DNA of 47,860 nucleotides from Lichenibacterium ramalinae (lineage in GTDB: Bacteria; Pseudomonadota; Alphaproteobacteria; Rhizobiales; Beijerinckiaceae), in contig NZ_QYBC01000005.1 of the NCBI RefSeq assembly GCF_004137085.1, positions 1-47,860 of the forward strand, read 5' to 3'. Below, in pieces: positions 240 through 47,860 of the stretch; within the stretch, counting starts at the first letter, position 1; every line of letters begins with the position of its first letter. The translations under genes were made by a program, and so were the position numbers. The notes under the pieces are model-generated. The model was not told where the DNA came from. It saw only the letters and a list, made by a program, of their open reading frames with translations, and did not search any database.

Positions 240-2063
240 CTAGCCGACTCTCCTCAGCAGGGCGACGGGGCGCGCCTGCACCTTGCCGAGCTGGAAGCGG
301 TTCACCAGGCCCGAGAGTTCCTCGGTCTCGCGCGCCAGGGCCTGGCTCGCCGCCGTCGACTCGCCCGCCATGGCGGCGTTCTGCTGCGTCGCCTGGTCCA
401 TCTGGTCGATGGCCGTATTGATCTGCTCGAGCGCCGAGGTTTGTTCCTGCGCCGAGGCCGCGATCTCGCCCACGATCGTGCTGAGGTCCGCGACCTGGAC
501 CAGGATGCGGCCCAGCGCCTGGCCGGTTTCGCCGACGAGGCCGACGCCCAGCCCGACCTGGCGGCCCGAGGCCGAAACGAGGGTCTTGATCTCCTTGGCG
601 GCCTCGGCGGAGCGCTGCGCCAGGGCCCGCACCTCCGACGCCACGACGGCGAAGCCACGCCCCGCCTCGCCGGCCCGCGCCGCCTCCACGCCGGCGTTGA
701 GGGCGAGCAGGTTGGTCTGGAACGCGATCTCGTCGATGACGCCGATGATCCGGGTGATCTGGTCCGAGGCGTGTTCGATCCCGCTCATGGCTTCGACGGC
801 GCGCCGCACGACGAGGGCGGAGGATTCCGCGTCGGCCTTGGCGACGCCGACGACGTCCCGCGCCTGGGCGGCGCTCAGGCTCGTCCTGCGGACCGTGGCG
901 GTGACCTCGCCCAGCGCCGCGGCGGTTTCTTCCAGGCTCGCCGCCTGCTGCTCGGTGCGGCGGGACAGGTTCTCGGCCGCCGTGGAGATGTCGCCCGTGC
1001 CGGTGCGGATCGCCGACGTGTTCGTCGCCACCACGGTCAGCGTGTCGGCCAGTCTCGCCATGGCGTCGTTGAAGTCGACGCGCAGCCGCTCGTAGTCCCG
1101 CGCGAAGCTGCGCTCGAGCCGGAACGTGAGGGCGCCGGTGGCGAGCTGGTCGAGGCCCCGGCCGATGCCCTCGACGACCTCGGCGAGGTCCGCGGCGGCG
1201 GTCGCGCGATCCGCCTCGGCCCGCGTGCGCGCGGCATCGGCATCGTCCCGCACCCGTGCCGCCTCGGCCTGCAGCGAGGCCCTGCCGCGGGCCGCCGCCT
1301 TGAAGGTTTCGACCGCGCCCGCCATGGCGCCGAGTTCGTCGCGGCGCTCCAGCGACGGCGTGGGCGCGCCGTCGTCGCCGGCCGCCATGGCCGCCATGTG
1401 CCGCGCCATGGCGAGAAGCGGGCGGGTGACGCGGCGGGCCACGACGGCGAGCCCGAACAGGACGAGGCCGACCGCCGCGAGGCTGCCGACGGCCAGGGCC
1501 AGCCTGTAGCGGTCGACGTAGACGGCGGCCTGGGCCTCGTCGGCCGCGTTGGCGGCCGTCGTCGCCGCCACGATCCTGTCGATGATCTCGCGGTGCTCGC
1601 CGTAGGTCGTCGCCATCTCGTCCAAGGCGGTCGACACGGCGGCCCCGTCGCGGCGCGCGATCGCCGGGAACAGCTGCCCGTCGAGCAATCGCCAGAAGGC
1701 CTGCACCTTCGCATGCGACGTCACCGTGAGGTCCCGGGCGATGTCGGCGGGAAGGTCGGCCTTCGCCCAATGGTCGTGACGGGCGTCGTATTCGCCGTGC
1801 AAGGCGTCGATGCGGGCCTTGTGCTGGGCCGCCCGGGCGACGTCCCGCGCCGCGAGGTTGGCCTCGAGATAGGCCTCGATGATGTATTCGGGGGGAGGGA
1901 GGATGTCGCCGATCAGGTCCTTGCCGGAGACGATCTTGTCGTAGAGCGGGCCGTTCACCTCCAACTGCGCCAGCGCCGTCCAGCTCAGCCCCACGAGCGC
2001 CAGCATGCTGGCGCAGGTGAGCGCTCCGAACAGGATCATCGTCTGCGAAACCGTGAGTCTCAT
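240..2063 (-). CDS. Methyl-accepting chemotaxis protein with HAMP domain
   Basis: Transmembrane chemoreceptor that signals to a CheA/CheW kinase complex. With the start chosen here (MRLTVSQT) it has 607 residues. Membrane segment 1 is at about 8-28, followed by a mostly helical periplasmic sensor at about 30-186. Membrane segment 2 is at about 188-208, with a HAMP linker after it and possibly a second HAMP-like stretch near 300-352. The long cytoplasmic coiled coil carries the signature hairpin tip at 446-475 ([15 protein letters not shown] followed by [14 protein letters not shown]). No CheR-binding pentapeptide is seen at the C-terminus, which ends in a short basic tail. In-frame starts at 2075 and 2129 are possible; none has a strong ribosome binding site. 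The ligand cannot be deduced. The gene is monocistronic as far as visible. Confidence 0.93.
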
Positions 2064-2214
2064 CCGAACGCCCATCCATCGCCGGCCTGCGCCGACATCA
2101 CGATGCATGGTTGAATGGAGTGGGGCCATTCCGGTTAAATTGGCGTGAAGGGTCGGCGTCCCCGACAGGGGCCGGTGCCTCGCCGTCGCGGCGGTCCCGT
2201 GGCGGGCGGCCGCG

Positions 2215-9562: not shown

Positions 9563-11032
9563 TCAGGCCGATTCGGTACGGTCGTAGCCGTCGTTCAGCG
9601 CCGCCGCCGTCACCGGACGGGGCCGGCGGTGGCCGCTGATCTCGGCCCCGGCCTTCGGGGAGAAGCGCAGGTTCCAGATCGTGGCCGACAGCGAGATGCC
9701 GGTCACGACCAGGAAGGCGACCGAGAAGTCGCCGAGCTGCGGATGGGCATGGTCGCGCAGCACCATCGAGCCCTCGAGCGCCAGGGCCGCCGTGCAGATG
9801 CCGACCGACAGCATCAGCTGCTGGAACGTCGTGTAGAAGCTCGTGGCCGAACTCATGCGGGCGGGCGGCACGGCGTCGTACGCCACCGTGTTGTAGGCGG
9901 TGAACTGGAACGACATGAAGAAGCCGCACAGCATCAGGATGGCGAACATGGCCGGAAAGGGCAGGCCCGGCCGGAAGGCCGCGCAGCAGGCGTAGCCGCA
10001 GCTCGCCACGACGCCGTTGACGATGAGGCTCGAGCGGAAGCCGAACCGCCGCAGCAGGCCGGGCGCGAAGGCCTTCATCGACATGGAGCCGAGCGCGGTG
10101 GCGACGACGACGCCGCCGCTCTGCGCCGCCGTGAGGCCGAAGTCGAGCTGCAGCATCAGCGGCAGCAGGAACGGCTGCGCGCCCTGGGTGATGCGGGTCA
10201 GCGAGCCCGCGATGACCGAGGTGCCGAAGGACGGCAGCCGCATCAGCGACAGGTCCATGATGGGGTCGGCGGTGCGCCGGGCGTGACGCACGTAGAGCAG
10301 GCCGAAGCCGAAGCCGACCGCCAGCAGCAGCCCGACCAACGGCGCGAGGTCCGGGTGGCTGGCGAGCTCGAAGCCGAAGAACAGGCAGCCGAGCGCGATC
10401 CCCGACAGCGCCATGCCGGACCAGTCGAAGGGCCCGACCGCGTCGCCGTGGGTGTTCTCGATGAAGCGCAGCACGAGGCCGAGGCCGAGCAGGCCGATCG
10501 GGATGTTGATGTAGAAGATCCAGCGCCAGTCGAGGAAGGTGACGATGAAGCCCCCCACCGGCGGCCCCACGATGGGGCCGATCATGGCCGGCACCAGCAG
10601 CCAGGACATGGCCGACACGAGGTCCCGCCGCTCGACGGAGCGCAGCAGGACCAGCCGGCCCACCGGCATCATCATGGCGCCGCCGAGCCCCTGGAAGGCC
10701 CGGGCCAGGACGAAGAGCGGCAGGTTGGGCGCCTGGGCGCAGAGGGCCGAGCCCAGCATGAAGACCGCGATGGCGGCGGCGAAGACCGTGCGGGCCCCGT
10801 ATTTGTCCGCCACCTTGCCGCTGGCCGGGATGAAGATCGCCAGGGACAGGAGGTAGGAGGTGAGCGCGATGCTCATGCTGGGCGCGGCCACGCCGAAGTC
10901 TCGCGCCATGGTGGGCAGGGCGGTGGCCAGGATCGTGGCGTCGAGCTGTTCCATGAACATCGCGCTCGCCACGATCAGGGCGATGAAGCGGAAGTTCAGC
11001 GGCTGGGAGGCCGGCAGCGTGGCAGCGGTCAT
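9563..11032 (-). CDS. MFS drug/proton antiporter, DHA2 (EmrB/QacA) type
   Basis: 489 residues with about 14 predicted membrane helices. DHA2 landmarks are visible. MEQLDATILATALPTMARDF is the motif D1-like first helix. GKVADKYGARTVF is motif A. GPIVGPPVGGFIV is motif C of proton-coupled exporters. WRWIFYINIPIG follows motif C, as in EmrB relatives. It probably exports a hydrophobic compound from the cytoplasm. It is the first gene of an operon with the cytochrome P450, which suggests export or detoxification of a P450 substrate or product. The 399-bp upstream region has a 16-bp inverted repeat. No EmrA-type membrane fusion gene is nearby. Confidence 0.92.
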   Translation of the reverse strand: MTAATLPASQPLNFRFIALIVASAMFMEQLDATILATALPTMARDFGVAAPSMSIALTSYLLSLAIFIPASGKVADKYGARTVFAAAIAVFMLGSALCAQAPNLPLFVLARAFQGLGGAMMMPVGRLVLLRSVERRDLVSAMSWLLVPAMIGPIVGPPVGGFIVTFLDWRWIFYINIPIGLLGLGLVLRFIENTHGDAVGPFDWSGMALSGIALGCLFFGFELASHPDLAPLVGLLLAVGFGFGLLYVRHARRTADPIMDLSLMRLPSFGTSVIAGSLTRITQGAQPFLLPLMLQLDFGLTAAQSGGVVVATALGSMSMKAFAPGLLRRFGFRSSLIVNGVVASCGYACCAAFRPGLPFPAMFAILMLCGFFMSFQFTAYNTVAYDAVPPARMSSATSFYTTFQQLMLSVGICTAALALEGSMVLRDHAHPQLGDFSVAFLVVTGISLSATIWNLRFSPKAGAEISGHRRPRPVTAAALNDGYDRTESA

Positions 11033-11431
11033 GGACTCGTGCGGTCGGCGACCGGGGGGCTCGTCCGCGTGATGAGGTCCCCAGGTCAGACATCGGGCTC
11101 GTGGCGCGCCCGTCCGGGCCGGGCGATGCCGCGTCGCGATGTCTGACCTGGGCTCCCCGTTTGCCGCGCGCGGGCGCAGTCTCTCGATCTGCGGTGAGGG
11201 ACGTGGTTCGGCGGTCCTGTCACTCTTATAGGTCGCTCATGTTCGGCGAACAGTGCCGGTTCCCGATGGCGGCCATGCGCTGCGGCCGGGGCTGCCGTAA
11301 CGGAAAATTAGGGCTCCCCTTCGAAACCGCCCGAGCCCGAGCGGGGCGGCGTCGACGGGCGGGCGGCTGGCGATGCCGCGAGCGATGCCGCGCCGCCGGG
11401 TGGCCTCGTCCCGACGTCGGGCCGGCAGGCG
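11033..11431. other. Intergenic region between the MFS exporter and the OmpW gene
   Basis: 399 bp without a credible gene. It holds the 5' control region of the MFS-P450 operon, including the inverted repeat at 11080-11152, and a short palindrome GTTCGGCGAAC at 11241-11251. The OmpW-side half contains nothing recognisable beyond possible 3' sequence of the OmpW transcript. Frames crossing it show no family resemblance. Confidence 0.6.
11080..11152. promoter_or_regulatory. 16-bp perfect inverted repeat upstream of the MFS-P450 operon
   Basis: CCCAGGTCAGACATCG at 11080-11095 is repeated as its exact reverse complement at 11137-11152, with 41 bp between. It lies 48-120 bp upstream of the exporter start codon, a suitable place for an operator pair or a leader hairpin. 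No regulator gene of TetR, MarR or LysR type is adjacent. The binding partner is unknown. Confidence 0.45.
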
Positions 11432-12172
11432 TCAGAAGCGGTAGCCCAGGCCCGCGCCCACGATCAGCATGTCGAGCTTCACCGTGGCGGAGACCGGCCC
11501 GACGTGGGCGACCTGGACCGGCAGGAAGATCTGCTTCAGTTCGGCATTGGCGTACCAGTTGCCGCCGAGATGATAGTCGAGTCCGACCTGGATCATGGGC
11601 CCGACCTGCGGATCGGATTTGATCGCCGTGACGAGGGGCCGCGCCGGCTGGTAGGCCAACGGCACCGTCGCGCCGACGCCAACGCCGACGTAAGGGTTGA
11701 AGGTCGACAACGGGAGCAGGTGGTACTGCAGCGCAGCCGTCGTCGAGGCACTCCAGACGGTCCCGACCGGGAAGTTGCCCAGGAGCGAGTTCCGGATGGA
11801 CGTCCGCGTCGGCACGATGCCGAACTGCGCCGCGACGGCGAAATGGTCGGTCATGAAATAGGAGACGTCGAGGTCCGGCAGGGCCCGCGCCGGCGTGACG
11901 ATCCGCCCTCCGATCAGGTCGATCCGGGACCGCTGGTCGACCGGTATGGCGCCGATGATCCTGCCGCGCACCAGGAAGCTCCCCGCCGTCAGCCCGCCCT
12001 CGAGCGGCGGCGCCGCGGGTTGCGGCGCGACGGCCGCGGGCGAGCGGGCGGGCGAGGGTGCGGGGAGATCGGCCGCCCCCCCGGACGAGGGCAGGGCGAT
12101 GGCGCAGGCGATGAGCGCGGTCCGGCACAGGTCGCCGCGTCGCGTTCTGCTGCGTCGTTCGATGTGAACCAT
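11432..12172 (-). CDS. OmpW family outer membrane protein
   Basis: 246 residues. The ATG at 12172 is preferred because GAGG lies about 6 bases upstream and a signal peptide begins there (basic MVHIERRSRTRRGD, hydrophobic TALIACAIALPSS, cleavage near GGAA-DLP). A proline/alanine-rich linker (about 38-62) precedes the barrel. The barrel opens with GSFLVRGRIIGAIPVD, as in OmpW, and ends with VGAGLGYRF, a typical C-terminal barrel strand with terminal phenylalanine. OmpW proteins are eight-stranded porins for small hydrophobic molecules. Longer frames upstream to 12535 lack family similarity. It lies downstream of the c-di-GMP operons on the same strand, with 163 bp between. Confidence 0.85.
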   Translation of the reverse strand: MVHIERRSRTRRGDLCRTALIACAIALPSSGGAADLPAPSPARSPAAVAPQPAAPPLEGGLTAGSFLVRGRIIGAIPVDQRSRIDLIGGRIVTPARALPDLDVSYFMTDHFAVAAQFGIVPTRTSIRNSLLGNFPVGTVWSASTTAALQYHLLPLSTFNPYVGVGVGATVPLAYQPARPLVTAIKSDPQVGPMIQVGLDYHLGGNWYANAELKQIFLPVQVAHVGPVSATVKLDMLIVGAGLGYRF

Positions 12173-12335
12173 GGGATCCTCGACGGTCATGGCCATTTCG
12201 GGCCGACGGAAAAGAGACGCTGCCTCGGGGGGCGGGCGCGGCGATGGGGTCAGTGCCGCGGCGTGGCGATCGCTCGCGATCCGGAGCTGGAGCGGATCCG
12301 CCGAAGGCGGAAGCGCTTGAGCGGCGCGCGGTGCT

Positions 12336-13583
12336 TCAGGTGGGATGCCACAGGATCGAGGCCGCGGCCGTCTCGACCGCCTCGCCGTCGCGGGCCGCCG
12401 GAACGCCCGGCGGCGTGTCGGACCCGGGCTTGCGCGGCACGGGAAGCCAGCCCACCCTGACCTGATTGCGGCCGTTCCGCTTCGCGGCGTAGAGGGCCGT
12501 ATCGGCCCGGGCCAGGGCGGCGTCGATCCGGGCATCCCCCTCTGCCACGACCGAGACCCCGATGCTGGCCGTGACGGTGACGTCCGCGCCGCCGAGGACG
12601 AAGGGGCTCCCGCTCACCGCCAGGCAGAGCCGTTCGGCGATGTCGACCGCCGTGTCGACGTCGGCCCGGTCCAGCAAGGCCAGGAACTCTTCGCCGCCCC
12701 AGCGCGCCATGACGTCGTCCTGGCGCATGATGCCGCGAAGCCGCGCGGGGAAACCGGCCAGCACCGCGTCGCCGCCGTCGTGGCCGTAGGTGTCGTTGAT
12801 GGACTTGAAGTGGTCGATGTCGATCAGCAGGATCGCGCCGCAGGGAGGGCCGGCCCGGCGCGCCACGGCCGCGAACAGGCCCCGGCGGTTCGCCAGCCCG
12901 GTGAGCGGGTCGGTCGCCGCCAGGCCGGCGACCCTCGCGTTCGCCCGTTCGCCGACCATCGCCAGATAGCCGACCTGGATGAGGACTCCGCACCACTGGT
13001 CGAAGAGCATCGCGTAGACGGCGGATTCCGGCGAGGCCAGGCGCTCTCCCGCGACATGGGCCAGGCCGATCGATGCGACGAAGGCGGTCGCATAGAGGCA
13101 GAAGCCGAATGCCACCAGGTATTGCGTCCACAGACGCATCTGGGACGTGGGCTTGAGGATCTCGAAGACGCAGAGGCCCGCCGTGAAGGCCATGATGACC
13201 AACTCCCCGGACAGCGCCCACGCCACCGAGAACTTCAGATGCAGCAACAGGCCGTACAGAAGGCCGGGACACAGGCTCAGCCCGGCCATGGCACGGACGG
13301 CGATGGACCTTTCGTGGAAGATGCGCAGGCCACACCAGGACAGCGCCAGGCTCGAGCCGTAGAGCGTGTAGACGATCGTGCCCAGGCCGACCCGCAGCGG
13401 CACGGCCGAAGGGCTGCCCAGCATGAGCACCGAGGCGATCAGCGAGCAGACGAGCGCGCCGGCCCACACCGCGAAATAGGTTTCCTTCGGCTGCCGCAGC
13501 AGGGTCACCAGGAACACGCTGACGAAGGCGAGGCGGCTGCAGATGCTGGCGACCCCAAGGGTGTGGAAGTCGAGCGCCGTCAT
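12336..13583 (-). CDS. Membrane-bound diguanylate cyclase (GGDEF)
   Basis: 415 residues. The first 210 contain about six hydrophobic helices forming a membrane sensory module without a named domain. The GGDEF domain occupies about 220-385. It has DPLTGLANRRG at its start, IDIDHFKSINDTYGH, the catalytic signature GGEEF at 296-300, and an intact inhibitory I-site R287-Q-D-D290 five residues before it. It should synthesise c-di-GMP from GTP with product feedback inhibition. The start ATG overlaps the stop of the upstream EAL gene as ATGA and has GGGAGG upstream, so synthesis is translationally coupled to a phosphodiesterase. The C-terminal tail of about 30 residues is unrelated to the domain. 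Confidence 0.92.
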   Translation of the reverse strand: MTALDFHTLGVASICSRLAFVSVFLVTLLRQPKETYFAVWAGALVCSLIASVLMLGSPSAVPLRVGLGTIVYTLYGSSLALSWCGLRIFHERSIAVRAMAGLSLCPGLLYGLLLHLKFSVAWALSGELVIMAFTAGLCVFEILKPTSQMRLWTQYLVAFGFCLYATAFVASIGLAHVAGERLASPESAVYAMLFDQWCGVLIQVGYLAMVGERANARVAGLAATDPLTGLANRRGLFAAVARRAGPPCGAILLIDIDHFKSINDTYGHDGGDAVLAGFPARLRGIMRQDDVMARWGGEEFLALLDRADVDTAVDIAERLCLAVSGSPFVLGGADVTVTASIGVSVVAEGDARIDAALARADTALYAAKRNGRNQVRVGWLPVPRKPGSDTPPGVPAARDGEAVETAAASILWHPT

Positions 13584-14518
13584 CCCTGACCTCCCAGGGC
13601 CAGGCAGGCTCGGCCGGCCCGGGCCTCGCGCTCGACCGGCGCCGTCACGGGCCCGCAGGCCGTCGCGGCCCGGGCCGATCCCCGGTCCCATGTCGGGTCC
13701 GCCAGCAGCCGACGCACCGCCGCGGCGTCGACGGGCCGGCTGAAGAGGAAGCCTTGCAGCTCATCGCAGCCGATCCCACGCAGCAGCGCGACGGCAGCCT
13801 CGGTCTCGACCCCCTCGGCCGTGACGGCCATCCCGAGGCCGCGTGCGATGTCGTGCATCGCCCGCACCAGGACCCAGTTGGCCTGGCTTTCATCGATGCC
13901 CTGGATGAACGAGCGATCGATCTTGAGCCGGTCGAAGACGAAGCGCTGGAGATAGCCGAGCGACGAATAGCCGGTCCCGAAATCGTCGAGCGCCACGTTG
14001 ACGCCGAGCGCGCGGATGCGGCGGATGCAGTTGATCGCGGCGGCCACGTCGCTGACCATGACGGACTCGGTCAGTTCGAGTTCGAGCCGGTGCGGCGGCA
14101 GTCCGCTCGCCTCCAGGGCGCTCGCGACCCGGTCGAAGAGCCCGGGTTGCCGCAGCTGGACGGGCGAAACGTTGACGGACACGCGGCAGTCCCCGCGCCA
14201 TGTCGCGGCCTGTCGGCAGGCCGTGTCGAGGACCCAGGTTCCCATGGCGCCGATCAGCCCATGGCGTTCCGCCACCGGCACGAAGTCGGCCGGCGATACG
14301 GGTCCCAGGGCCGCGTGGTGCCACCGCAGGAGCGCCTCGAAGCCCGTGACGGCACCCGTCGCGGCGTCGACGAAGGGTTGGTAGGCCAGCATGAGTTCGC
14401 CGCGATCCAGGGCGAGCCGCAGGTCGTCGACGCGAAACCGCGGTCGCCGGGTCGGGCCATCGCGCTCGACCGTCGAGCGCGTCCCGCCGGGCGCCGGCGC
14501 TGGTGCGGCGATCCTCAT
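13580..14518 (-). CDS. EAL-domain cyclic-di-GMP phosphodiesterase
   Basis: 312 residues consisting of a short disordered N-terminus (about 1-28) and one EAL domain. Catalytic motifs are intact: FEALLRW (E61-A-L), NVSPVQL, ELELTES, ALDDFGTGYSSL with the double aspartate, LKIDRSFI and VTAEGVET. It should hydrolyse c-di-GMP to pGpG in the cytoplasm. There is no sensor domain of its own. It is followed by a GGDEF gene with a 4-bp stop/start overlap, so a phosphodiesterase and a cyclase are made together. The start MRIAAPAP was chosen because frames upstream are low complexity. It lies 289 bp downstream of the coumarate ligase gene and may have its own promoter in that gap. Confidence 0.92.
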   Translation of the reverse strand: MRIAAPAPAPGGTRSTVERDGPTRRPRFRVDDLRLALDRGELMLAYQPFVDAATGAVTGFEALLRWHHAALGPVSPADFVPVAERHGLIGAMGTWVLDTACRQAATWRGDCRVSVNVSPVQLRQPGLFDRVASALEASGLPPHRLELELTESVMVSDVAAAINCIRRIRALGVNVALDDFGTGYSSLGYLQRFVFDRLKIDRSFIQGIDESQANWVLVRAMHDIARGLGMAVTAEGVETEAAVALLRGIGCDELQGFLFSRPVDAAAVRRLLADPTWDRGSARAATACGPVTAPVEREARAGRACLALGGQG

Positions 14519-14807
14519 GGACGTCGCCCGACGTCTTGGCCTTTGTGCATGACCCGCAACCCTCCGCTGCGGATCTTGTAGAGTCCCGGGTTTAACCGAC
14601 CGTTGCAATACGCCCGTCGAACGGGGCAAGACTCAACGTCGTGAATCGATGTCGACGCTCGGGCAGCCGCGGTGGGACCCGACCGTCGCGCCCCGTCGGA
14701 CCGACGCGCGCCCGCTCACTGGGGATCCAGCCTTCCGCTCGAACGGGATGTGTGGTTTTGCGATGTCGGGGACGCGACGTTTCCGGGGCCGAGGCCGCCG
14801 GGCGGCG

Positions 14808-16013
14808 TCACCAGTCCGAGGCCTTGCCCAGCGGGCCGGTCGGCAGCCGAGGGCCGAAGGCGATGGCCACTGGCCGTTCGGCGACCGGCAGTTCGGCGCG
14901 GATCCAGCCGGACAGGTCGTCCCGCAGGACCGCGACGTCGGCTCCGGCCTCGGGGACCACGAAGGCCTTGAGGCGGGTGCCCTCGTCCGGGCGCATCAGC
15001 CTCACCGCCGCCTCATGGACGCCGGGGCGTCCGCGCAGGCGTTCCGCCACGCGGTCGGGGTGGACGTTGATGCCGCCGACCTGCACGGCGCCGTCCCGTC
15101 GCCCCGCCAGGCAGAACCGACGCCCCTCGCGGGAGCGGATCCGGTCCGGCAGCCCGGCGCGCCGGCCGGAGCGATGAAGGATCTCGGGCGTCGCGTCGTC
15201 CAGCGGCGCGGCGAAATCCCAATGCGGCATGAGCGTATAGGCCGCCTCCGGCCAGCGCCGCACCGCCACACCGGCCGTCTCGGACGAGCCGTAGACTTCC
15301 GTCATCCCCGCCAGCCCGCGCTCGTGCAGCGCCGCGATCAGCGGTGGCGGGCAGGGCGCGGTCGAAACCGCGCCCTCGACGTCCTCCGGCCAGCCCGGCA
15401 GCGAGCGCTCGAGCCAGAGCCAGCGTTCGGGGACCGTGACGACGAGATCGCCCGGCGCGAGGGTGCGGGCCACCTCGGAGGCGCCGAAGCCGGTCGCGTC
15501 GACATGCGGCACGCCGAGCGCGTCCGGCAGCAGCGCGGCGAAGAGGAGGCCGAAGGCGTGGTGGGCCGGCACGAGGGTCACGACGCGGCGCCTGTCCCGG
15601 AACAGCCGGCCGAGATATGCGGCTTCGGTCAGCAGGGCTTCGCCCGCATGCCGGCATCGCTTCGGCTGCCCCGTGGTGCCCGACGTCGTCAGCGTGAGGG
15701 CGGCGACGCCGGATCGCCACCCGGCCTCGATCCGGTCCATCCAGCCCCCGAACGTGGCTTCGGCGGGCAGGTCGGTGTCGCAGCCGGCCTCGTGGAGGTG
15801 GAACATCTCGTTCACCGCCGCGGCGAGCCAGAGCGTGTCCAAGGAATCGCACCCGAGCCCCTCCGCCCCCGTGCCGATCGGCATGGACTCGGGCCAGGCG
15901 GGCGGCAGGCCGCGCGGCAGGGACGTGTCAGAGCCCGCACGGCCGCGGGCGACCCGAAGCTCCGCGGCGAGCAGGCTCTGCAGAACGGCCGAGAGGGCGC
16001 GGCGCGACAGCAT
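14808..16013 (-). CDS. pcl: 4-coumarate-CoA ligase, photoactive-yellow-protein type
   Basis: 401 residues, a compact member of the AMP-forming acyl-CoA synthetase superfamily. The phosphate-binding loop is TTSGTTGQPK (109-118). YGSSETAG is the adenine/substrate motif, and GRRDGAVQVGGINVHPDRV matches motif A8. PTGPLGKASDW at the C-terminus carries the catalytic lysine. The N-terminal 100 residues include GCDSLD (54-59) followed by a helix, resembling a carrier-protein-like segment seen in ligases that activate p-coumarate for PYP. Its position at the end of the EAL-PYP-GGDEF operon, 17 bp after the GGDEF stop, supports a role in making the p-coumaroyl thioester chromophore. Substrate specificity is inferred from context and family. 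Confidence 0.82.
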   Translation of the reverse strand: MLSRRALSAVLQSLLAAELRVARGRAGSDTSLPRGLPPAWPESMPIGTGAEGLGCDSLDTLWLAAAVNEMFHLHEAGCDTDLPAEATFGGWMDRIEAGWRSGVAALTLTTSGTTGQPKRCRHAGEALLTEAAYLGRLFRDRRRVVTLVPAHHAFGLLFAALLPDALGVPHVDATGFGASEVARTLAPGDLVVTVPERWLWLERSLPGWPEDVEGAVSTAPCPPPLIAALHERGLAGMTEVYGSSETAGVAVRRWPEAAYTLMPHWDFAAPLDDATPEILHRSGRRAGLPDRIRSREGRRFCLAGRRDGAVQVGGINVHPDRVAERLRGRPGVHEAAVRLMRPDEGTRLKAFVVPEAGADVAVLRDDLSGWIRAELPVAERPVAIAFGPRLPTGPLGKASDW

Positions 16014-16030
16014 CGCGGTTCGGTGGCGGT

Positions 16031-17314
16031 TCAGGCGGCCGCCTGACCGGGGTCGGACGCGACGACCCGGTCGCGGCCCGTGCGCTTGGCCACGTAGAGC
16101 GCGCCGTCGGCCGCCGCCAGCAGGTCGGCCAGGGAGGTGATGCCGCCGCCGAGGGCGCTGCATCCGAAGCTCGCCGTGATGCGCAGCGGGATCCCGCCCG
16201 CCTCCATCTGCTGGGCGGCGAGCGAGGCGCGCAGGCGTTCCGCGACGACGGAGGCCGCCGAGAGGGACGCTTCCGGCATCAGCGCGACGAACTCCTCGCC
16301 GCCGAGGCGGGCGAAGAGGTCCTCGGGGCGCAGCCCCGCCTCGCAGCGCCGCGCCACCTCGCGCAGCACGGCATCGCCGGCCGCATGCCCGTGCTCGTCG
16401 TTGACGCGCTTGAACAGGTCGACGTCGAGGAGCACGAGCGCCAGCGGAGTCCCGTCCCGGAGCGATCGCAGGATCTGACGCTCCGCCGTCTCGAAGAAAT
16501 GCGCGCGGTTGCTGGCGCCGGTGAGGTGGTCGCGGGTCAGCATCCGCCTGAGGTCGGCGGCGTCGCGGTGCTGGCGCGTCACCGCGCGGAGGATCATGGC
16601 GAACCCTTGCGCGACCCCGTCGGAGGGGTGGCGGAGGGCGATCAGCCGCTGGCACCAGTAGCGGCCTCCGTCGGCCAGGGCGTGCCAGCCCTCGTGCAGA
16701 TGCCAACCGTCCCGTCGCGCCACCGCGATGGCTTCGCCGGGCTGCAGCGTCGCGGAAGCGCGGTCGGGGCGGTCGAAGGCGGCGAAGCAACGCCCGACCA
16801 GCTCCGTTTCGGCGAAGCCGGTCTGCCGGGTCGCCGAGGGCATGGCGGCGTCGATGCACCCGGTCGCGTCGATGGACAGGACCGCGACGTCGTCGATGCC
16901 GTCGAGGAGCGAGGCGAACCAGGTTTCCGCCTGTTTCAGGCGGCGCTCGCGGGCCACCTGCTCGGTCACGTCCGACAGCGTCGCGACGTAGCGGTCCTCC
17001 GTCAGCTTGGAAACGCTGCAGGCCAGCACGCTCGACCGCGCGCCCCGTCCCGTGATGATGCGGTGGCCCTCGCAGATCGTGCCCTGCGGGGCCGCGAACT
17101 GTTGGACCATGTTGCGCAACTCGGGGGCGCAGCCCTCGAAGACATCGAAGAGGTTGGCCACGAAGGGACGGCCGGCCATGGGCAGGAGGAGGCCCATGGC
17201 GGCCGGGTTGATCATGCCGATGACGCCGGCGGCCGAAAACTCGACGAGCCCAGCCGGGCAGGCATAGAGGAACTGCAGCAGAGCTGTGTTTTCGGTCTCG
17301 ATGTCGGTCGCCAC
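16031..17314 (-). CDS. PAS-PAS-GGDEF diguanylate cyclase
   Basis: 427 residues from a GTG start preceded by an AGGGGG Shine-Dalgarno sequence. PAS domain 1 spans about 10-120, PAS domain 2 about 130-248, and the GGDEF domain about 255-425. In the GGDEF domain DHLTGASNR and LDVDLFKRVNDEHGH lead to the active-site GGEEF at 338-342. The I-site is R329-P-E-D332. No membrane segment is seen, so it is a cytoplasmic c-di-GMP synthase whose PAS domains may bind a cofactor or a partner protein. It begins 11 bp after the PYP stop codon. The natural hypothesis is that PYP signals to this enzyme, but no interaction motif can be read from sequence. Confidence 0.92.
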   Translation of the reverse strand: MATDIETENTALLQFLYACPAGLVEFSAAGVIGMINPAAMGLLLPMAGRPFVANLFDVFEGCAPELRNMVQQFAAPQGTICEGHRIITGRGARSSVLACSVSKLTEDRYVATLSDVTEQVARERRLKQAETWFASLLDGIDDVAVLSIDATGCIDAAMPSATRQTGFAETELVGRCFAAFDRPDRASATLQPGEAIAVARRDGWHLHEGWHALADGGRYWCQRLIALRHPSDGVAQGFAMILRAVTRQHRDAADLRRMLTRDHLTGASNRAHFFETAERQILRSLRDGTPLALVLLDVDLFKRVNDEHGHAAGDAVLREVARRCEAGLRPEDLFARLGGEEFVALMPEASLSAASVVAERLRASLAAQQMEAGGIPLRITASFGCSALGGGITSLADLLAAADGALYVAKRTGRDRVVASDPGQAAA

Positions 17315-17325
17315 GGCTGCCCCCC

Positions 17326-17682
17326 TCAGCGGTCGATGAGAATGAAGCGACGCTCCATTCGCCGTGCCTTCAGCAGCCGCAGGCGCACGGGTGTCGGGCG
17401 CATGCGCAAGGTGAGCACGTAGTCGATCGTCGCGTCGATCTCGGCTTCGTCCTCGAGGCGCTGCGCGACCATGAAGTTGTTCATGCATTGCGCCGTCACG
17501 GAGAAGTAATGCGTGCCGACGACGGTGTCGCGCGGCAGGCCGGCCAGCTTGGCCTCCGTCGCGTTGTAGACCTCGACGTTGCCCTCGGACGAAAGCCCGA
17601 CGACCCCGAACGGCAACGTGTCGAGCGCTTCCTCGTCGAGCGCGGCGAGCGTGTCGAGGGCGATGGCGTCGAACGAGAGCAT
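17326..17682 (-). CDS. pyp: Photoactive yellow protein (PYP) blue-light receptor
   Basis: 118 residues, close to the 125 of Halorhodospira PYP, a soluble PAS-fold receptor carrying a p-coumaroyl thioester. Recognised features: FGVVGL at the start of the core and VYNATE with Y39 and E43 (equivalent to chromophore-binding Tyr42 and Glu46). The chromophore cysteine is C66 in VTAQC (Cys69), Y88 equals Tyr94, and M94 equals Met100 in RMRPT. Thr50, Arg52 and Pro68 are replaced by A47, L49 and Q65, so spectral and kinetic properties should differ from the prototype. The start at 17682 matches the family N-terminus; frames starting at 17727 or 17736 overlap the EAL stop. It is flanked by EAL and GGDEF genes. 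Confidence 0.9.
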   Translation of the reverse strand: MLSFDAIALDTLAALDEEALDTLPFGVVGLSSEGNVEVYNATEAKLAGLPRDTVVGTHYFSVTAQCMNNFMVAQRLEDEAEIDATIDYVLTLRMRPTPVRLRLLKARRMERRFILIDR

Positions 17683-17713
17683 GGCGGCGCTTTGCAAGGT
17701 CGATCCCCGACGG

Positions 17714-18523
17714 TCAGAGGGCAACATCGGCGACACGGTCGGCGACGGGCGCGTCGAGGCACGCCGCCGCGGGTTGCCGCGCCGGCCACCAGACCGGCGG
17801 CAGGGCCGCCACGGCCGGCTTGGCGAACAGGAAGCCCTGGAACAGGTCGATGCCGGCCGCGCGGAGGGTGGCCAGTTCGGCCTCGGTCTCCACCCCCTCG
17901 GCGATCACCACGACGTCCAACTGGCGCGCCATGGCGATCACGCCCCCGACGATGACCTGACGCGCGGTCGACGTCGCGATGCCGCGGATCAGCTCCATGT
18001 CGAGCTTGATGAAGTCGGGCTGGAAGCTCGCCAGCAGGTTCAGCCCGGCATAGCCGGCGCCGAAATCGTCGATGGCGGTGGCGAAGCCCTGCCGGCGGTA
18101 TTCGGCGACGATCCGCTGCACGTGGGCGGTGTCGGTCATCCGCTCGTTCTCGGTGAACTCGAACATGATCCGGCGGTGCGAGAACCCCACGCGACGGGCG
18201 GCGTCCAGCGTCGCACGGATGCAGGCAGCCGGTTCGTAGACGGCGTTCGGCATGAAGTTGATCGACAGCCGGGCCTCGGTGTTGGGGAACAGGCTCCGGG
18301 CGAGCTCGATCGCCGTGACGCGGCAGGCCTGGTCGAACTTGTAGCGGTTGACGTCGTCGACCATCGCCAGGATCTGGCCGGCGCCCTCGCCCGCAACGCC
18401 CCTGACAAGGGCTTCGTAGCCCCAGACGACCTGTCGCTGAAGGTCGATGATGGGATGGAACGCCATCGTGAACTCGAATGGCAGCGGTCCACCCTCTCGG
18501 CAGCCTTGGCACGCGGTTTTCAT
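17714..18523 (-). CDS. Stand-alone EAL phosphodiesterase with N-terminal CxxC
   Basis: 269 residues, nearly all EAL domain. Intact motifs: EALVRG (E37), INFMPN, MFEFTENE, AIDDFGAGYAGL (D152-D153), IKLDMEL (K173) and VIAEGVETE (E209). It should degrade c-di-GMP. The N-terminus MKTACQGC has a C5-x-x-C8 pair that could bind a metal or act as a redox switch; such cysteines recur in small EAL proteins of this type. It is the first gene of the PYP operon, with PYP starting 31 bp after its stop. The upstream 293 bp should contain the operon promoter and include TGACG-N5-CGTCA at 18576-18590. Confidence 0.9.
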   Translation of the reverse strand: MKTACQGCREGGPLPFEFTMAFHPIIDLQRQVVWGYEALVRGVAGEGAGQILAMVDDVNRYKFDQACRVTAIELARSLFPNTEARLSINFMPNAVYEPAACIRATLDAARRVGFSHRRIMFEFTENERMTDTAHVQRIVAEYRRQGFATAIDDFGAGYAGLNLLASFQPDFIKLDMELIRGIATSTARQVIVGGVIAMARQLDVVVIAEGVETEAELATLRAAGIDLFQGFLFAKPAVAALPPVWWPARQPAAACLDAPVADRVADVAL

Positions 18524-18575
18524 GGCTTACAGGTCTCGACCTCGCTCCAATAAACTAACTGCGCGATCGTTTCAT

Positions 18576-18590
18576 TGACGTAAATCGTCA
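18576..18590. promoter_or_regulatory. Candidate operator TGACG-N5-CGTCA upstream of the PYP operon
   Basis: The inverted pair TGACG/CGTCA separated by TAAAT lies 53-67 bp before the EAL start codon, in an unusually AT-rich stretch for this genome. It could be a dimeric regulator site near the operon promoter. It is a single short palindrome, so chance is possible. The rest of the 18524-18816 gap shows no gene. Confidence 0.35.
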
Positions 18591-18816
18591 GACGGCGCCG
18601 TCGCGCTGCGACATCTAGACAGCAAGCAAGGACGGTGGTGTCAAATGCGAATTATCGCCGCATTCAATGCGCGGATCTCTGGCTGCCTCCACCGACCCTG
18701 CGGAACCCTCGACAGGCTTTGCATCGGACGGCTGCCCGCCGGGTGACCAAGACTACGGCGATCTGTGGGAGGGTTGCTGAAACCGGAATCGGACGACGCC
18801 CGACGGCAGACTGGCG

Positions 18817-19257
18817 TCACGGGCGGTGCGGATCGCCGGCGTGGGGTTCGAGGCTGCGGCGGGTGCGCAGGATGCGGATGCCGACGCTGCGGCAGTCCGG
18901 GTACACGTCGAGCTTGCGAAGGTAGACTTCGACGGCGGCGACGTCGCGCGGCTTGAGGCAGAGCCCGGCCACGCGCTCGGCCAGCGTTTCCTGGAGGTCG
19001 ACGTGGGGCGCCTCGGCGAGGGCGGCGATGTCGCGCTTCACCGCATCGTAGTCGACCACCTCGGCGAGGTCGTCCGAGGCGAGTGGGGCCGCCGGCACCA
19101 CGAGGAGTTCGGCCGAGACCCGGACCCGCTGCGGCCCGTGCCGCTCGGCGGCATGGGCGCCGATGCGCAGCGTGAGGTCGAGGTCCTCGAAGACGATGAC
19201 GCGGGCCGCCTCGTCGTTCGACAGCAGCGCGGCCCTGAGGCTGGGGAAGGGTGACAC
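18817..19257 (-). CDS. folB: Dihydroneopterin aldolase family protein (FolB-like)
   Basis: 146 residues from a GTG start with GGAG about 12 bases upstream. Family landmarks: VIVFEDLDLTLRIGAHAAERHGPQ near the N-terminus, VVDYDAVKRDI in the middle, LQETLAERVAGLCL with the glutamate region of the active site, and VEVYLRKLDVYPDCRSVGIRI at the end. FolB enzymes cleave 7,8-dihydroneopterin in folate synthesis and form octamers. No folK or folP is adjacent, so it may be a paralogue or an isolated folate gene. A longer frame to 19368 adds 37 residues of low-complexity sequence and is not favoured. The gene is divergent from the response regulator gene. Confidence 0.85.
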   Translation of the reverse strand: MSPFPSLRAALLSNDEAARVIVFEDLDLTLRIGAHAAERHGPQRVRVSAELLVVPAAPLASDDLAEVVDYDAVKRDIAALAEAPHVDLQETLAERVAGLCLKPRDVAAVEVYLRKLDVYPDCRSVGIRILRTRRSLEPHAGDPHRP

Positions 19258-19435
19258 GGGATGGGCTCCGTCGCCGGGAGGACGCGCCACGACTGTGCAG
19301 CATCGGGCCGGCGCGCGCCATCCCGGCCTGGCGCCCGCCCATTTGGGGGATGAAAACCCGGGTCCCACAACGCCGCCGTTTCCGCTACGATGACGCGGCG
19401 CCGCCCCGCGGCGAAGCAGGCTTCAAGGGCGTCGC

Positions 19436-19819
19436 ATGCCGGACCAGCACCTCCAGGATTGCAGGATCCTCGTGGTCGAGGACACGTATTTCATCGCCGA
19501 CGACATCGGCGCCGCGCTGCGCCGCGCCGGTGCCGTCGTGGTCGGGCCGGCGCCGAGCCGCGAGGCCGCGCTGGCGCTCCTCGCGTCCGAGACGATCGAT
19601 GCCGCCGTGCTCGACGTGAACCTGCAGGGCGAGACCGCCTATCGCTTGGCCGACCAGTTGCTCGCGCGCCGCACGCCCTTCGTCTTCGCGACCGGCTACG
19701 GCCGCGCCTTCATCCCGGAAGCCTATGGCGCCATCTCCCTGTGGGAGAAGCCGTTCGACCCGCGCGCGCTCGTCGGCGCGCTGCCCGCGCTGATCGCCGA
19801 GGCCCGCGCGGGCGGCTGA
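19436..19819 (+). CDS. Single-domain response regulator (REC only)
   Basis: 127 residues forming a CheY-like receiver domain. The acidic pocket is E15-D16 (VVEDTYF), the phospho-acceptor is D60 (VLDVNL), the switch threonine is T86 (FATGY) and the conserved lysine is K105 (WEKPF). There is no output domain. Such regulators in alphaproteobacteria act in phosphorelays or as phosphate sinks. No histidine kinase gene is adjacent, so the partner is unknown. It lies between a divergent folB gene and a convergent sugar kinase gene. Confidence 0.9.
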   Translation: MPDQHLQDCRILVVEDTYFIADDIGAALRRAGAVVVGPAPSREAALALLASETIDAAVLDVNLQGETAYRLADQLLARRTPFVFATGYGRAFIPEAYGAISLWEKPFDPRALVGALPALIAEARAGG

Positions 19820-19907
19820 GGCCGGCTGGGGGAGGGGGTGCGGGATCCCCGGGTGACGAACGCGTCGAGCTCGTGCCGGAACGCCCTCTGGAACCGATCG
19901 GAAGTCT

Positions 19908-19930
19908 CCCTCCGTTCTCGGCGCGGAGGG
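19908..19930. terminator. Hairpin between two convergent genes
   Basis: CCCTCCG (19908-19914) and CGGAGGG (19924-19930) form a 7-bp stem with a 9-nt loop, between the convergent response regulator and kinase genes. Its position fits a bidirectional terminator, but neither side has a T-run. Confidence 0.35.
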
Positions 19931-19947
19931 CATGCGGTCACACGATA

Positions 19948-20949
19948 TCAGGCATCCAGCCGCTCGGCCCGGGCCAGGGCGGCGAGGTCGGCCACGGGGC
20001 GGGCCCCGACGTGGCCGATGATCTCGGCCGCGGCGAGCGCACCGAGCCGGGCGCAGTCGAGCGCGTCGCGCCCCCGGGCCAGTCCGGCCAGGAAGCCGGC
20101 GGCGAAGAGGTCGCCGGCGCCGGTCGAGTCGACCACGGCCGCCACCGGAAAGGCCGGCACGCCGCGCACGCCGCCGGGCTCCGCCACGACGGCGCCCGCC
20201 GCGCCGCGGGTCACGGCCGCGAGGGCGCAATCCGCCCGCAGGGCCGCCACGGCGCCGTCGAAGTCGGCCGTCTCGTAGAGGGCGAGCAGTTCCGCCTCGT
20301 TGGCGAAGACGATGTCGACCTGCTTCGACCGGACGAGGTCCAGGAACTCGTCCCGGTAGCGGCCGACGCAGAAACTGTCCGACAGGGACAGCGCCACCCG
20401 GCGGCCGGCCGCGTGGGCGAGGCTCGACGCCTTGCGGAATGCGTCCTTGGCGTGGGGCGGATCCCACAGGTAGCCTTCGAGGTAGGTGACGCCGGCGGCG
20501 GCCACGAGGGCGGGATCCACGTCGTCCACGGTGAGGTTCTGGCAGGCGCCGAGAAAGGTGTTCATCGTGCGCTGCCCGTCGGGCGTCACCAGGATGTAGG
20601 AGCGCGCCGTGACGGGGCCGTCGGCGGCGGCGGGGGTCCCGAAGGCGACGCCGGTCGAGCGCAGGTCGGCCGAGAAATAGCCGCCCACCTCGTCGTCGCG
20701 GACCTTGCCGATGAAGGCGGAGGCCGCGCCGAGCTTCGCCGCCCCGACGGCCGTGTTGGCGGCCGAGCCGCCCGAGACGATGACGGTGGTGCCCATGGCG
20801 GCATGGAGCGCCTCGGCCCGCGCCTCGTCGATGAGGTTCATGCCGCCCTTGGCGATGCCCCACGTGTCGAGGAAGGCGTCGTCGACGCTGGTGAGGACGT
20901 CGACGATGGCGTTCCCCAGGCAGAGGAGGTCGAGGGTCTGGGCGGGCAT
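19948..20949 (-). CDS. PfkB family carbohydrate/nucleoside kinase (adenosine kinase-like)
   Basis: 333 residues, ribokinase-type fold. The N-terminal signature is GNAIVDV, SGGSAANTA at 59-67 is PfkB signature 1, and DSTGAGDLFAAGF has the catalytic base D280 and anion hole. FANEAE is the conserved phosphate-contact region. The overall length and the GNAIVD and GGSAANT motifs resemble the bacterial adenosine kinase-like group common in alphaproteobacteria. It would phosphorylate adenosine or another nucleoside/sugar with ATP in purine salvage, but specificity is not proven. It is monocistronic, with the 259-bp gap upstream shared with the divergent mscS gene. Confidence 0.87.
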   Translation of the reverse strand: MPAQTLDLLCLGNAIVDVLTSVDDAFLDTWGIAKGGMNLIDEARAEALHAAMGTTVIVSGGSAANTAVGAAKLGAASAFIGKVRDDEVGGYFSADLRSTGVAFGTPAAADGPVTARSYILVTPDGQRTMNTFLGACQNLTVDDVDPALVAAAGVTYLEGYLWDPPHAKDAFRKASSLAHAAGRRVALSLSDSFCVGRYRDEFLDLVRSKQVDIVFANEAELLALYETADFDGAVAALRADCALAAVTRGAAGAVVAEPGGVRGVPAFPVAAVVDSTGAGDLFAAGFLAGLARGRDALDCARLGALAAAEIIGHVGARPVADLAALARAERLDA

Positions 20950-31348: not shown

Positions 31349-31363
31349 TGCTAAGGAATGGCG

Positions 31364-31666
31364 ATGCGGATCATCGCACATGCCAATCTGTCGGCGTTCT
31401 GGGCCCAGCATCCGGACGCGCGGGCATCTCTGGAAAGGTGGACTGCGGTGATGAAGGGAGGCGATTGCGGCACGACGGCCGAGGTGCAAGCGCTGTTCTC
31501 GAAGGCCAAGGTGCTGGACGGACAACGCGTGCGTTTCGAGGTCTCGGGTGGAGATTATCGTCTGATCGCTTCCTTCAAGTTCAAGAACAGGATCGTCTTC
31601 GTCAAATCCATCGGAACCCATGCCGAGTACGACCGTATCGATGCGCTGGCCGTTTCTCAGTTCTGA
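31364..31666 (+). CDS. higB: HigB-type mRNA interferase toxin
   Basis: 100 residues from the ATG at 31364, with AAGGA six bases upstream; the in-frame ATG at 31358 abuts that site and is less likely. Features of the HigB branch of the RelE superfamily: MRIIAHANLSAFWAQHPDA at the N-terminus, DYRLIASFKFKNRIVFVKSIGTHAEYDRID at the C-terminus. The basic residues and the H-x-E-Y-D-x-I-D ending are those of ribosome-dependent mRNA interferases. It precedes its antitoxin by 18 bp, the inverted gene order typical of hig loci. Confidence 0.9.
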   Translation: MRIIAHANLSAFWAQHPDARASLERWTAVMKGGDCGTTAEVQALFSKAKVLDGQRVRFEVSGGDYRLIASFKFKNRIVFVKSIGTHAEYDRIDALAVSQF

Positions 31667-31684
31667 GTCCTTTGAGGCGAACCG

Positions 31685-32053
31685 ATGGACATCCGACCCA
31701 TCCGCACCGACGACGACCACCGAGACACCCTGGTGGAAATCGAGCGCCTTTGGGCCTACCCCGACGACAGCCCCGAGAACGACAAGCTCGACGTGCTGGC
31801 GACGCTCGTCGAGGTCTACGAGGCCCAGCGCTGGCCCCGCCGGGACTGCACGCCCGCGGAGATCCTGCTCCATGCGGTGACGGAGATGGGCCATAGCCAA
31901 GCCGAACTGGCCGAGCTGCTCGGTTCCCGTCCCATGGCGTCCGAGCTCGTGCGGGCCAAACGCCGCATCTCCCTCGCGGTCGCGCAGAAGATCAGCGCGG
32001 CCTGGCACATCCCCATCCAACTGCTCGTCGCGCCCTATGCGCTGGCGGCCTAG
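31685..32053 (+). CDS. higA: HigA-type antitoxin, HTH domain
   Basis: 122 residues with GAGGCGAACC as ribosome binding site. The N-terminal part (PIRTDDDHRDTLVEIERLW) is the long acidic arm seen in HigA proteins paired with HigB of this class. Residues about 55-115 form an XRE-like helix-turn-helix (MGHSQAELAELLGSRPMASELVRAKR). It should neutralise HigB and autorepress the operon. Confidence 0.9.
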   Translation: MDIRPIRTDDDHRDTLVEIERLWAYPDDSPENDKLDVLATLVEVYEAQRWPRRDCTPAEILLHAVTEMGHSQAELAELLGSRPMASELVRAKRRISLAVAQKISAAWHIPIQLLVAPYALAA

Positions 32054-46000: not shown

Positions 46001-46492
46001 ATGGCGGACGACGCCCCCAAGAAGCCCTCCAAGATCGGCGCGCTGGTGCCGATCCTGGTGCTGACCCTGGCGGCCGGCGGCGGCGGCGCGCTGATCGGCA
46101 AGCAGATCGTCGCCATGACGCGCGCCGCCGCCGACAAGACCGCGGCCCCCCCCGAGGCCGCCAAGCCCGCCGCGGCCGCCGCGGGGGCGGCGGGGGGCGA
46201 GCGCGTGCTGAAGGAACTCGCCCCCGTCGTCACCAACCTCGCGGCGCCGGACGGCTCGTGGATCCGCTTGCAAACCGCCATCGTCTACGACAAGAACGAC
46301 GCGCCCGCGATGGAGCTCGTCGGCAGGAAGGTTGGCGAGGACATCCTGGCCTTCGTCCGCACGCTGACACTGGAGCAGATCCAGGGCGCGAGCGGCCTCG
46401 AAGCCCTGCGGGACGACCTCAACGAGCGGGCCCAGCTCCGGTCCGACGGCAAGGTGCGGGAGCTCCTGATCGAGATGCTGGTGGTGCGATGA
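46001..46492 (+). CDS. fliL: Flagellar basal body-associated protein FliL
   Basis: 163 residues. A short cytoplasmic N-terminus is followed by one membrane helix (about 12-38, IGALVPILVLTLAAGGGGALIG), an alanine/proline-rich linker, and the periplasmic stomatin-like FliL domain (ELAPVVTNLAAPDGSWIRLQTAIVYD to RELLIEMLVVR). It stabilises the stator-rotor contact of the flagellar motor. It is located 18 bp after flgH and 25 bp before fliP in the typical Rhizobiales order. Confidence 0.93.
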   Translation: MADDAPKKPSKIGALVPILVLTLAAGGGGALIGKQIVAMTRAAADKTAAPPEAAKPAAAAAGAAGGERVLKELAPVVTNLAAPDGSWIRLQTAIVYDKNDAPAMELVGRKVGEDILAFVRTLTLEQIQGASGLEALRDDLNERAQLRSDGKVRELLIEMLVVR

Positions 46493-46517
46493 GACGGGCC
46501 CGCAGGCGTTCGGCCCC

Positions 46518-47414: not shown

Positions 47415-47426
47415 AGGTGGAGAATT

Positions 47427-47456
47427 AAGGTTGACGGAGCGCCCGGCGTTAACCTT
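47427..47456. promoter_or_regulatory. Inverted repeat between fliP and the flagellin gene
   Basis: AAGGTTGACG (47427-47436) and CGTTAACCTT (47447-47456) match at 9 of 10 positions as an inverted repeat with 10 bp between. It lies 13 bp after the fliP stop and 147 bp before the flagellin start. It may end the fliP transcript or be a regulator site in the flagellin promoter region. The rest of 47415-47602 has no clear sigma-28-type sequence. Confidence 0.4.
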
Positions 47457-47602
47457 GCCGCAAGGGTGAACGGCTAGCTTGAAGTCACACGAGATCGAGG
47501 GCGGTGCCGGGCACCTCACCCCTCGAAGGCATGAAGCCGCGCCCGTGTCCGGTCGAAACCGGGATGTCCACCCCGATCCATTGACCCGCCGGAACCTTTG
47601 CC

Positions 47603-47860
47603 ATGTCGAGCCTGCTGACCAACAATTCCGCCATGACGGCGCTGCAGAACCTGTCGATGACCCAGAAGGACCTGGGCAAGACGCAGGCGCAGATCTCGTC
47701 CGGCCTCGCCGTCGCCCAGGCGTCGGACAACGCCGCCTACTGGTCGATCTCCACCAGCATGAAGTCCGACGTGAGCGCGCTCGGCGCCGTGTCGAACGCG
47801 CTGAACCTCGGCGCTTCGGTGCTCAACACCGCCACTTCGGCGATGAACAGCGTCGAGACC
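47603..47860 (+). CDS. fliC: Flagellin (5' part, cut by window end)
   Basis: The first 86 codons of a flagellin; the gene continues past the window. MSSLLTNNSAMTALQNLSMTQ is followed by DLGKTQAQISSGLAVAQASDNAAYWSIST, the conserved D0/D1 N-terminal helix region of alphaproteobacterial flagellins that is recognised by the export machinery and forms filament contacts. The SD is weak (GGAAC about 8 bases upstream). It is separated from fliP by 188 bp, which presumably carries its own promoter. Confidence 0.95.
   Translation, partial: MSSLLTNNSAMTALQNLSMTQKDLGKTQAQISSGLAVAQASDNAAYWSISTSMKSDVSALGAVSNALNLGASVLNTATSAMNSVET

Follow-up and report, generated by a model that had tools for sequence, protein, structure and literature searches.

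How does a photoactive yellow protein (PYP) that consists of a single sensor domain pass its light signal to an enzyme? In the parts of two surveys drawn on here, this relay is called unknown, or a gap (PMC9664959, PMC12826048). The question is raised by a 47,860-nucleotide stretch of Lichenibacterium ramalinae DNA (contig NZ_QYBC01000005.1; hereafter the window), in which a PYP gene sits in a unit with genes for a diguanylate cyclase, an EAL phosphodiesterase and a p-coumarate:CoA ligase (pCL). We propose, with a probability of roughly 60%, that the PYP docks on a PAS domain at the N terminus of the cyclase, termed PAS-N, and gates synthesis of cyclic di-GMP (c-di-GMP), that the EAL protein is the counter-enzyme, and that the four genes form a transferable blue-light-to-c-di-GMP cassette.

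The original prediction, made from the window alone, described four minus-strand genes at 14808–18523 for an EAL protein, a PYP, a PAS-PAS-GGDEF cyclase and a coumarate ligase. All four open reading frames (ORFs) are indeed open on the minus strand, the gaps are exactly 31, 11 and 17 bp, and Pfam, NCBIfam and PDB-sequence matches agree with the four identities. The further claim that receptor, chromophore ligase, cyclase and phosphodiesterase make one compact unit fits the many relatives in which the unit is intact, and the suggested wiring through separate proteins is likely. That prediction allowed the cyclase, the phosphodiesterase or both as the target of PYP; the comparative evidence below narrows this to the cyclase, through PAS-N.

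The operon is not of a new kind, since PYP genes beside GGDEF and EAL genes were published in 2022 and 2025. According to the portions of those papers used here, clade C PYPs often adjoin GGDEF proteins, with no clade C member characterised at the time (Xing et al. 2022, PMC9664959); pyp operons contain GGDEF in 29 cases, EAL in 22 and pCL in 42 (Dohmen et al. 2025, Table 2, PMC12826048); and a c-di-GMP or biofilm role for PYP is proposed in both. These published neighbourhoods are alike in having a single-domain PYP beside separate GGDEF and EAL genes and pCL; unlike here, the same portions, supplements being outside their scope, describe neither a dedicated PAS partner nor transfer of a four-gene cassette. 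Our searches of the literature, with supplements and most subscription journals outside their scope, found no description of PAS-N. The additions here are thus the specific wiring via PAS-N and the discrete, transferable cassette.

A PAS domain that accompanies clade-C PYPs

Clade C has been delimited by retention of Met100 and loss of Phe92, Phe96 and Trp119, according to the part of PMC9664959 considered. Read from the alignment, the window PYP keeps M100 and carries F92 to I, F96 to L and W119 to F, and it is of clade-C type by these marker residues. The equivalents of Tyr42, Glu46 and Cys69, by which the model PYP holds its chromophore (Y39, E43 and C66 in the window), are kept in 131/131 rows of the clade (124 distinct sequences, 50 rows coming from loci found through PAS-N). 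A model of the homologue at locus L024 (63% identical) superimposes on the PYP entries listed with target-normalised TM-scores of 0.78–0.85 and a root-mean-square deviation of about 2.2. Against the curated model TIGR02373 the window PYP scores 58.6 bits, below the cut-off of 143.05, which fits the label 'hypothetical protein' on a plasmid-borne copy 81% identical to it; such PYPs are also annotated as 'PAS domain-containing protein' or 'phosphonate transporter' in plasmid records. Automatic annotation currently overlooks PYPs of this type.

PAS-N comprises the first ~117 residues shared by the proteins encoded behind PYP, whatever comes after. Pfam recognises only the second PAS of the window cyclase (as PAS_4); a set of 24 diverse PAS-N members gave no Pfam or NCBIfam match at E 0.01, nor did a profile of these 24 find a PDB sequence at E 0.1. 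In the AlphaFold model of the cyclase (mean predicted local distance difference test score, pLDDT, 83; predicted TM-score, pTM, 0.46), a PAS reaching to residue 116 is followed by a helix, a PAS at 140–245 and GGDEF at 267–419. PAS-N is a PAS-fold domain in the models of both the window protein and the L024 homologue, having two strands, helices and three strands, with pLDDT mostly above 85. The idea that it is a diverged PYP was rejected (hhalign probability 13%). The cyclase carries the motifs RPED-LFARL-GGEEF, that is, an RxxD I-site and GG[DE]EF. Its second PAS shows a strongly conserved RDGWxLxEGW...RYWCQRL consensus, derived from 72 of 83 cyclases, which is perhaps a ligand site.

Scanning one genome per species gave 122 relatives, and the 80 best loci were retained; by named record these belong to 43 Alpha-, 31 Beta- and 4 Gammaproteobacteria, one acidobacterium and one myxobacterium. 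PYPs of up to 90 bits and PAS-N matches of up to 60 bits were dropped before pairing was counted in loci and plasmids. Of the 81 loci selected through PYP (the window included), 80 have PAS-N at most 200 bp downstream of it, the sole exception being L059, where PAS-N is split and ~2 kb separates its two pieces. Where PAS-N was found first and PYP was present, the same spacing held in 50/50 loci. Of the PYP-only rows 55/108 were used, and of the PAS-N-only rows 65/161. In 40 whole genomes, the window's own and 39 that carry loci among the 80, each of the 45 PYPs scoring above 100 bits has PAS-N 23–120 bp downstream, one of them, that of L059, as a 41-residue fragment, compared with 0/9 weaker PYP homologues; of 55 PAS-N matches there, 54 lie by a strong PYP and the last scores only 31.5 bits.

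Broader searches, limited to scoring the top candidates in each genome, gave the same picture. Across 385 genomes of the class (11 candidates in each of the PYP and PAS-N searches), PAS-N occurs only in the window's own genome and is absent from 8 others with low-scoring PYP homologues. Among 120 relatives (37 candidates), it is present in the 4 genomes with a clade-C PYP, with none in a genome with a weak PYP match (G053) nor in two congeners without PYP. A reverse search that started from PAS-N covered 245 genomes from the family to which G537, the Massilia with locus L077, belongs (18 candidates) and yielded 92 matches in 48 genomes, forming 57 clusters, 50 of which have PYP directly upstream; one further PYP ends at a contig edge, its neighbour falling outside the contig. 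Both genes occur in 47 of these genomes, PAS-N only in 1, PYP only in 0 and neither in 197, so that PAS-N accompanies 47/47 genomes with a clade-C PYP and 1/198 without (Fisher p 7e-50, descriptive only because related genomes are not independent). Finally, 72,556 plasmid records include 13 with PYP and 11 with PAS-N, all 11 being common to both, with PAS-N 30–53 bp downstream; of the two PYP-only records one is just 28% identical, leaving 11 of 12 plasmid records with a clade-C PYP paired.

What follows PAS-N is variable. Among the proteins encoded behind PYP in 80 loci, 72 have the length of PAS-N/PAS/GGDEF and a GGDEF motif with no EAL, 6 are longer and include EAL, and 2 are short; domains were verified by Pfam in three loci. 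The short proteins, at L074 and L068, lack GGDEF and, counted from where PAS-N begins, are 266 and 124 aa long; at L074 a second PAS-N enzyme follows. Gene order varies too. We compared 82 loci (the window, L009 and L012–L091, some truncated by contig ends), of which 33 hold PYP, cyclase, ligase and EAL on one strand within 5 kb of PYP. This answers the question of conservation that the original prediction had raised, and such grouping is not expected by chance. EAL comes first in 11 of the 33 (the window, nine Methylobacterium and Lichenifustis) and last in 22 (20 Sphingomonas, Beijerinckia and one Rhodobacteraceae). The other loci have the ligase without EAL (11), neither nearby (29), the ligase on the other strand (6), the ligase upstream (2) or EAL without the ligase (1); an EAL of the window type is missing within 5 kb on the PYP strand in 48. 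These counts indicate that EAL is optional and free in position, and that what stays constant is the PYP gene with the cyclase gene after it. Because the pairing persists while enzyme, ligase and EAL come and go, PAS-N is best explained as a docking or receiver domain for PYP.

A candidate signal path and its alternatives

We envisage that the ligase makes p-coumaroyl-CoA, which would load the Cys69 equivalent of PYP, by analogy with the H. halophila precedent. Holo-PYP would then act as a free subunit that docks on PAS-N, and its photocycle would alter this contact; relayed by the helix and the second PAS, the change would raise or lower GGDEF output. The solo EAL protein would remove c-di-GMP and set its basal level, light thereby tipping the balance between synthesis and breakdown. 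Distance trees, built like the coupling analysis below from the 109 of 130 pairs of suitable length, weakly point to PAS-N as the partner, its partial correlation with PYP being 0.43 compared with 0.20 for the second PAS and 0.16 for GGDEF.

Several observations weigh against this proposal. PAS-N kept its lead on the second PAS in just 72% of bootstraps; mean-field coupling analysis (73.9 effective sequences) did not single out the PYP/PAS-N pair; and AlphaFold returned two good folds for the pair but, at a pTM of 0.60, did not settle an interface. We infer the contact, since neither approach resolves it, and adjacency together with shared transfer could link the two genes without contact. PAS-N lacks an adjacent PYP in 7 of the 57 clusters of the reverse search: six belong to genomes that have the pair at another site, one of the six being at a contig end, and in the genome of the seventh (G609) no PYP was found. 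Comamonadaceae plasmid CP099603 encodes a full-length clade-C PYP (155.7 bits) with no PAS-N in the 8.3 kb read, which reach to about 4 kb from it, and a convergent gene adjoining it encodes a PAS-domain protein exceeding 1300 aa; we regard it as a true exception that slightly lowers confidence in the PAS-N wiring. Thr50 and Arg52 of the model PYP are moreover replaced by Ala and Leu in the window PYP, and by A or S and mostly L across the clade, and the spectral properties may therefore differ.

Could PYP instead act mainly on the solo EAL protein in trans, with a cyclase that is constitutive or senses something else? The window EAL protein resembles that of BlrP1 and has intact motifs, all four genes stay together in 33/82 loci, and the PapB-PapA complex offers a precedent in the portion of PMC8846402 consulted. 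Against this, PAS-N is present in the 48 loci where no such EAL lies near PYP, some of them contig-cut, and EAL relatives of 50–65% identity occur in 9 of 376 class genomes besides the window's own (6 best candidates scored), with no PYP found in those 9. We consider EAL as the main target distinctly unlikely. A push-pull arrangement, in which light stimulates one enzyme and inhibits the other, draws on the same 33 loci and on the EAL domain found behind PAS-N in the enzyme after PYP at 6/80 loci (by Pfam in three); the window EAL protein has only its EAL domain by Pfam, however, and the 48 loci without a nearby EAL again speak against it, which makes joint control unlikely.

There is also little chance, in our estimate the least of these alternatives, that the genes are merely co-inherited and that PYP signals elsewhere, the linkage reflecting joint operon transfer. 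The cassette does seem to have moved as a unit (see below), and one plasmid PYP has no PAS-N nearby. Yet the PYP/PAS-N pairing persists although the remainder of enzyme and operon differs among Alpha-, Beta- and Gammaproteobacteria, one acidobacterium and one myxobacterium, and of the 7 PAS-N clusters remote from PYP, 6 belong to genomes with such a pair at another site, which fits action in trans. We therefore favour docking of PYP on PAS-N as the gate of the cyclase.

Among known systems, in the parts of the sources covered, the nearest mechanism is PapB-PapA of Rhodopseudomonas palustris (PMC8846402), where a free blue-light receptor likewise acts on a separate c-di-GMP enzyme, a solo EAL; its receptor is a BLUF flavoprotein and its target the EAL, whereas in the window the receptor is PYP and the target most likely a cyclase that carries a receiver domain. 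In Idiomarina loihiensis, too, a separate PYP has been suggested to control the adjacent GGDEF protein and to affect biofilm (PMC9664959, PMC12826048), although that PYP belongs to clade A. Ppd of Thermochromatium tepidum (same sources) couples PYP to c-di-GMP output within one PYP-phytochrome-GGDEF/EAL polypeptide, whereas the subunits here are separate and lack a phytochrome.

Natural PYP-cyclase fusions, which would be direct proof, were not met in the clade of clade-C PYPs. Two other fusions (L095 and L097, in genomes G269 and G138) join a protein like a methyl-accepting chemotaxis protein (MCP), with no evident membrane segment, to a C-terminal PYP that scores low to the clade; as soluble MCP-PYP proteins with low-scoring PYPs, they were rejected as fusion proof.

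The near-invariance of PAS-N after clade-C PYPs offers a specific and cheap test for a direct PYP partner. If the proposal is true, PYP and PAS-N are a natural two-part light module that could be placed before other outputs. A wider and more tentative idea, to which we give somewhat less than even odds, is that the pair is a portable two-part photoreceptor, a free sensor subunit with its dedicated receiver, fronting varied c-di-GMP enzymes, and that in the genomes with no aromatic ammonia-lyase match (see below) holo-PYP may form only on plant- or lichen-derived p-coumarate, so that the unit would be a gate that needs both light and a host phenolic.

Transfer of the cassette

The rpoB of the window's genome is 88.5–89.2% identical to those of three congeners, 87.2% to that of Beijerinckia and 82.8–84.0% to those of two Methylobacterium (three of ten rpoB, from Methylobacterium J-077, L. 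minor and G001, were not counted). The window PYP is 73–81% identical to those of eight Methylobacterium, 64% to that of a ninth (L023) and 61–65% to those of congeners. A tree built from PYP together with cyclase (33 rows) places the window within the group of eight Methylobacterium (support 100/99), and constraining it to group with its three congeners is rejected (approximately unbiased test, p-AU 3e-35), Beijerinckia also being among those congeners. DNA matches to Methylobacterium are confined to 14802–18529, with no other above 150 bits in 11001–20500; similarity therefore stops at the gene borders. Tree and DNA homology together suggest that the cassette was probably acquired from Methylobacterium. 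In Methylobacterium sp. FF17 it lies on a 67-kb plasmid, a plausible vehicle of the transfer. Light control of c-di-GMP would, if the proposal is true, spread among bacteria as one cassette. On the FF17 plasmid pB (L232), the EAL gene is immediately preceded by a chemoreceptor gene, and the ligase gene immediately followed by one for another EAL phosphodiesterase.

A viral origin was rejected. The sole IMG/VR match (L103, with PYP at the contig edge) agrees base for base over 5309 positions with a contig of Polymorphobacter multimanifer (L027), which makes its viral label doubtful.

Components, chromophore supply and surroundings

Table 1. Coordinates of the four-gene unit and its parts in the window.
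Feature	Position	Strand	Basis
EAL gene (stand-alone phosphodiesterase, BlrP1-like, N-terminal CxxC)	17714–18523	minus	269 aa; Pfam EAL E 9e-52
PYP gene, clade-C type	17326–17682	minus	118 aa; TIGR02373 E 6e-16, PDB PYP E 5e-11
Codon of predicted chromophore-binding cysteine C66 of PYP (Cys69 equivalent)	17485–17487	minus	sequence and alignments
Diguanylate cyclase, PAS-N - PAS - GGDEF, with GGEEF and RxxD I-site	16031–17314	minus	427 aa; Pfam GGDEF E 2e-39, AlphaFold model, motifs
PAS-N domain, proposed PYP receiver, motif LLQFLYACPAGL...MINP	16943–17293	minus	117 aa; linkage to PYP
Second PAS of cyclase	16580–16897	minus	
GGDEF catalytic domain of cyclase	16067–16534	minus	Pfam match, residues 261–416
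p-Coumarate:CoA ligase, presumed PYP-chromophore activator	14808–16013	minus	401 aa; TIGR02372 E 9e-82; AMP-binding (Pfam) E 2e-10

The best PDB sequence matches of the EAL protein (Table 1) are 6ifq/6ih1, followed by BlrP1 (3gfx), and it scores 321.5 bits against the RimA-type model NF052265, below the cut-off of 430. E37, N89, E122, D152, D153, K173, E209 and Q229, which we take to be its metal- and substrate-binding positions, are kept in 34/34 aligned rows, the window included. Its relatives in the nine class genomes without a detected PYP make it look recruited, and for the same reason the notion of an EAL protein dedicated to PYP was dismissed. An N-terminal CxxC pair, possibly a metal or redox site, is visible in most of the 34 rows. 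The ligase scores 274.8 bits against TIGR02372, below the cut-off of 334.7; this is by far its best model (the next reaches 67.4 bits), and by that match it is of PYP type. In the Lichenibacterium minor ligase (L024:3530–4723, the same record as L008), GE replaces the C-terminal GK whose lysine is present in three other aligned ligases.

None of the four genes encodes a lyase that would supply p-coumarate. The window's own genome has three aromatic lyases, of which one (L119) looks like a histidine ammonia-lyase, judging by a Ser-His loop that we presume to be typical of that family, and another (L126) shows no 4-methylidene-imidazole-5-one (MIO) motif in a crude ORF pick. Of the 14 genomes searched for aromatic ammonia-lyases, seven (two Methylobacterium, three Sphingomonas, Beijerinckia and Terriglobus) gave no match; all seven have the ligase beside PYP and may depend on outside p-coumarate. 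An outside supply for PYP is also suggested in the part of PMC12826048 consulted.

Within 14400–18900 we found no sigma-70-type promoter, and terminator-like sites number 3 against 1.7 expected. A second c-di-GMP pair lies on the minus strand at 12336–14629, ~0.2–0.3 kb past the ligase, where the gene for an EAL protein (13580–14629) overlaps that for a GGDEF protein (12336–13592) with a hydrophobic N-terminal half; these genes were ruled out as members of the unit because Methylobacterium homology ends at ~14802. Farther away, a HigB-type toxin gene is followed by an HTH_3 gene (31358–32053, plus strand). Outputs that c-di-GMP might affect are a chemoreceptor of the HAMP-MCP type (240–2129, minus strand) and, at 46001–47860 on the plus strand, fliL, fliP and a flagellin-like start.

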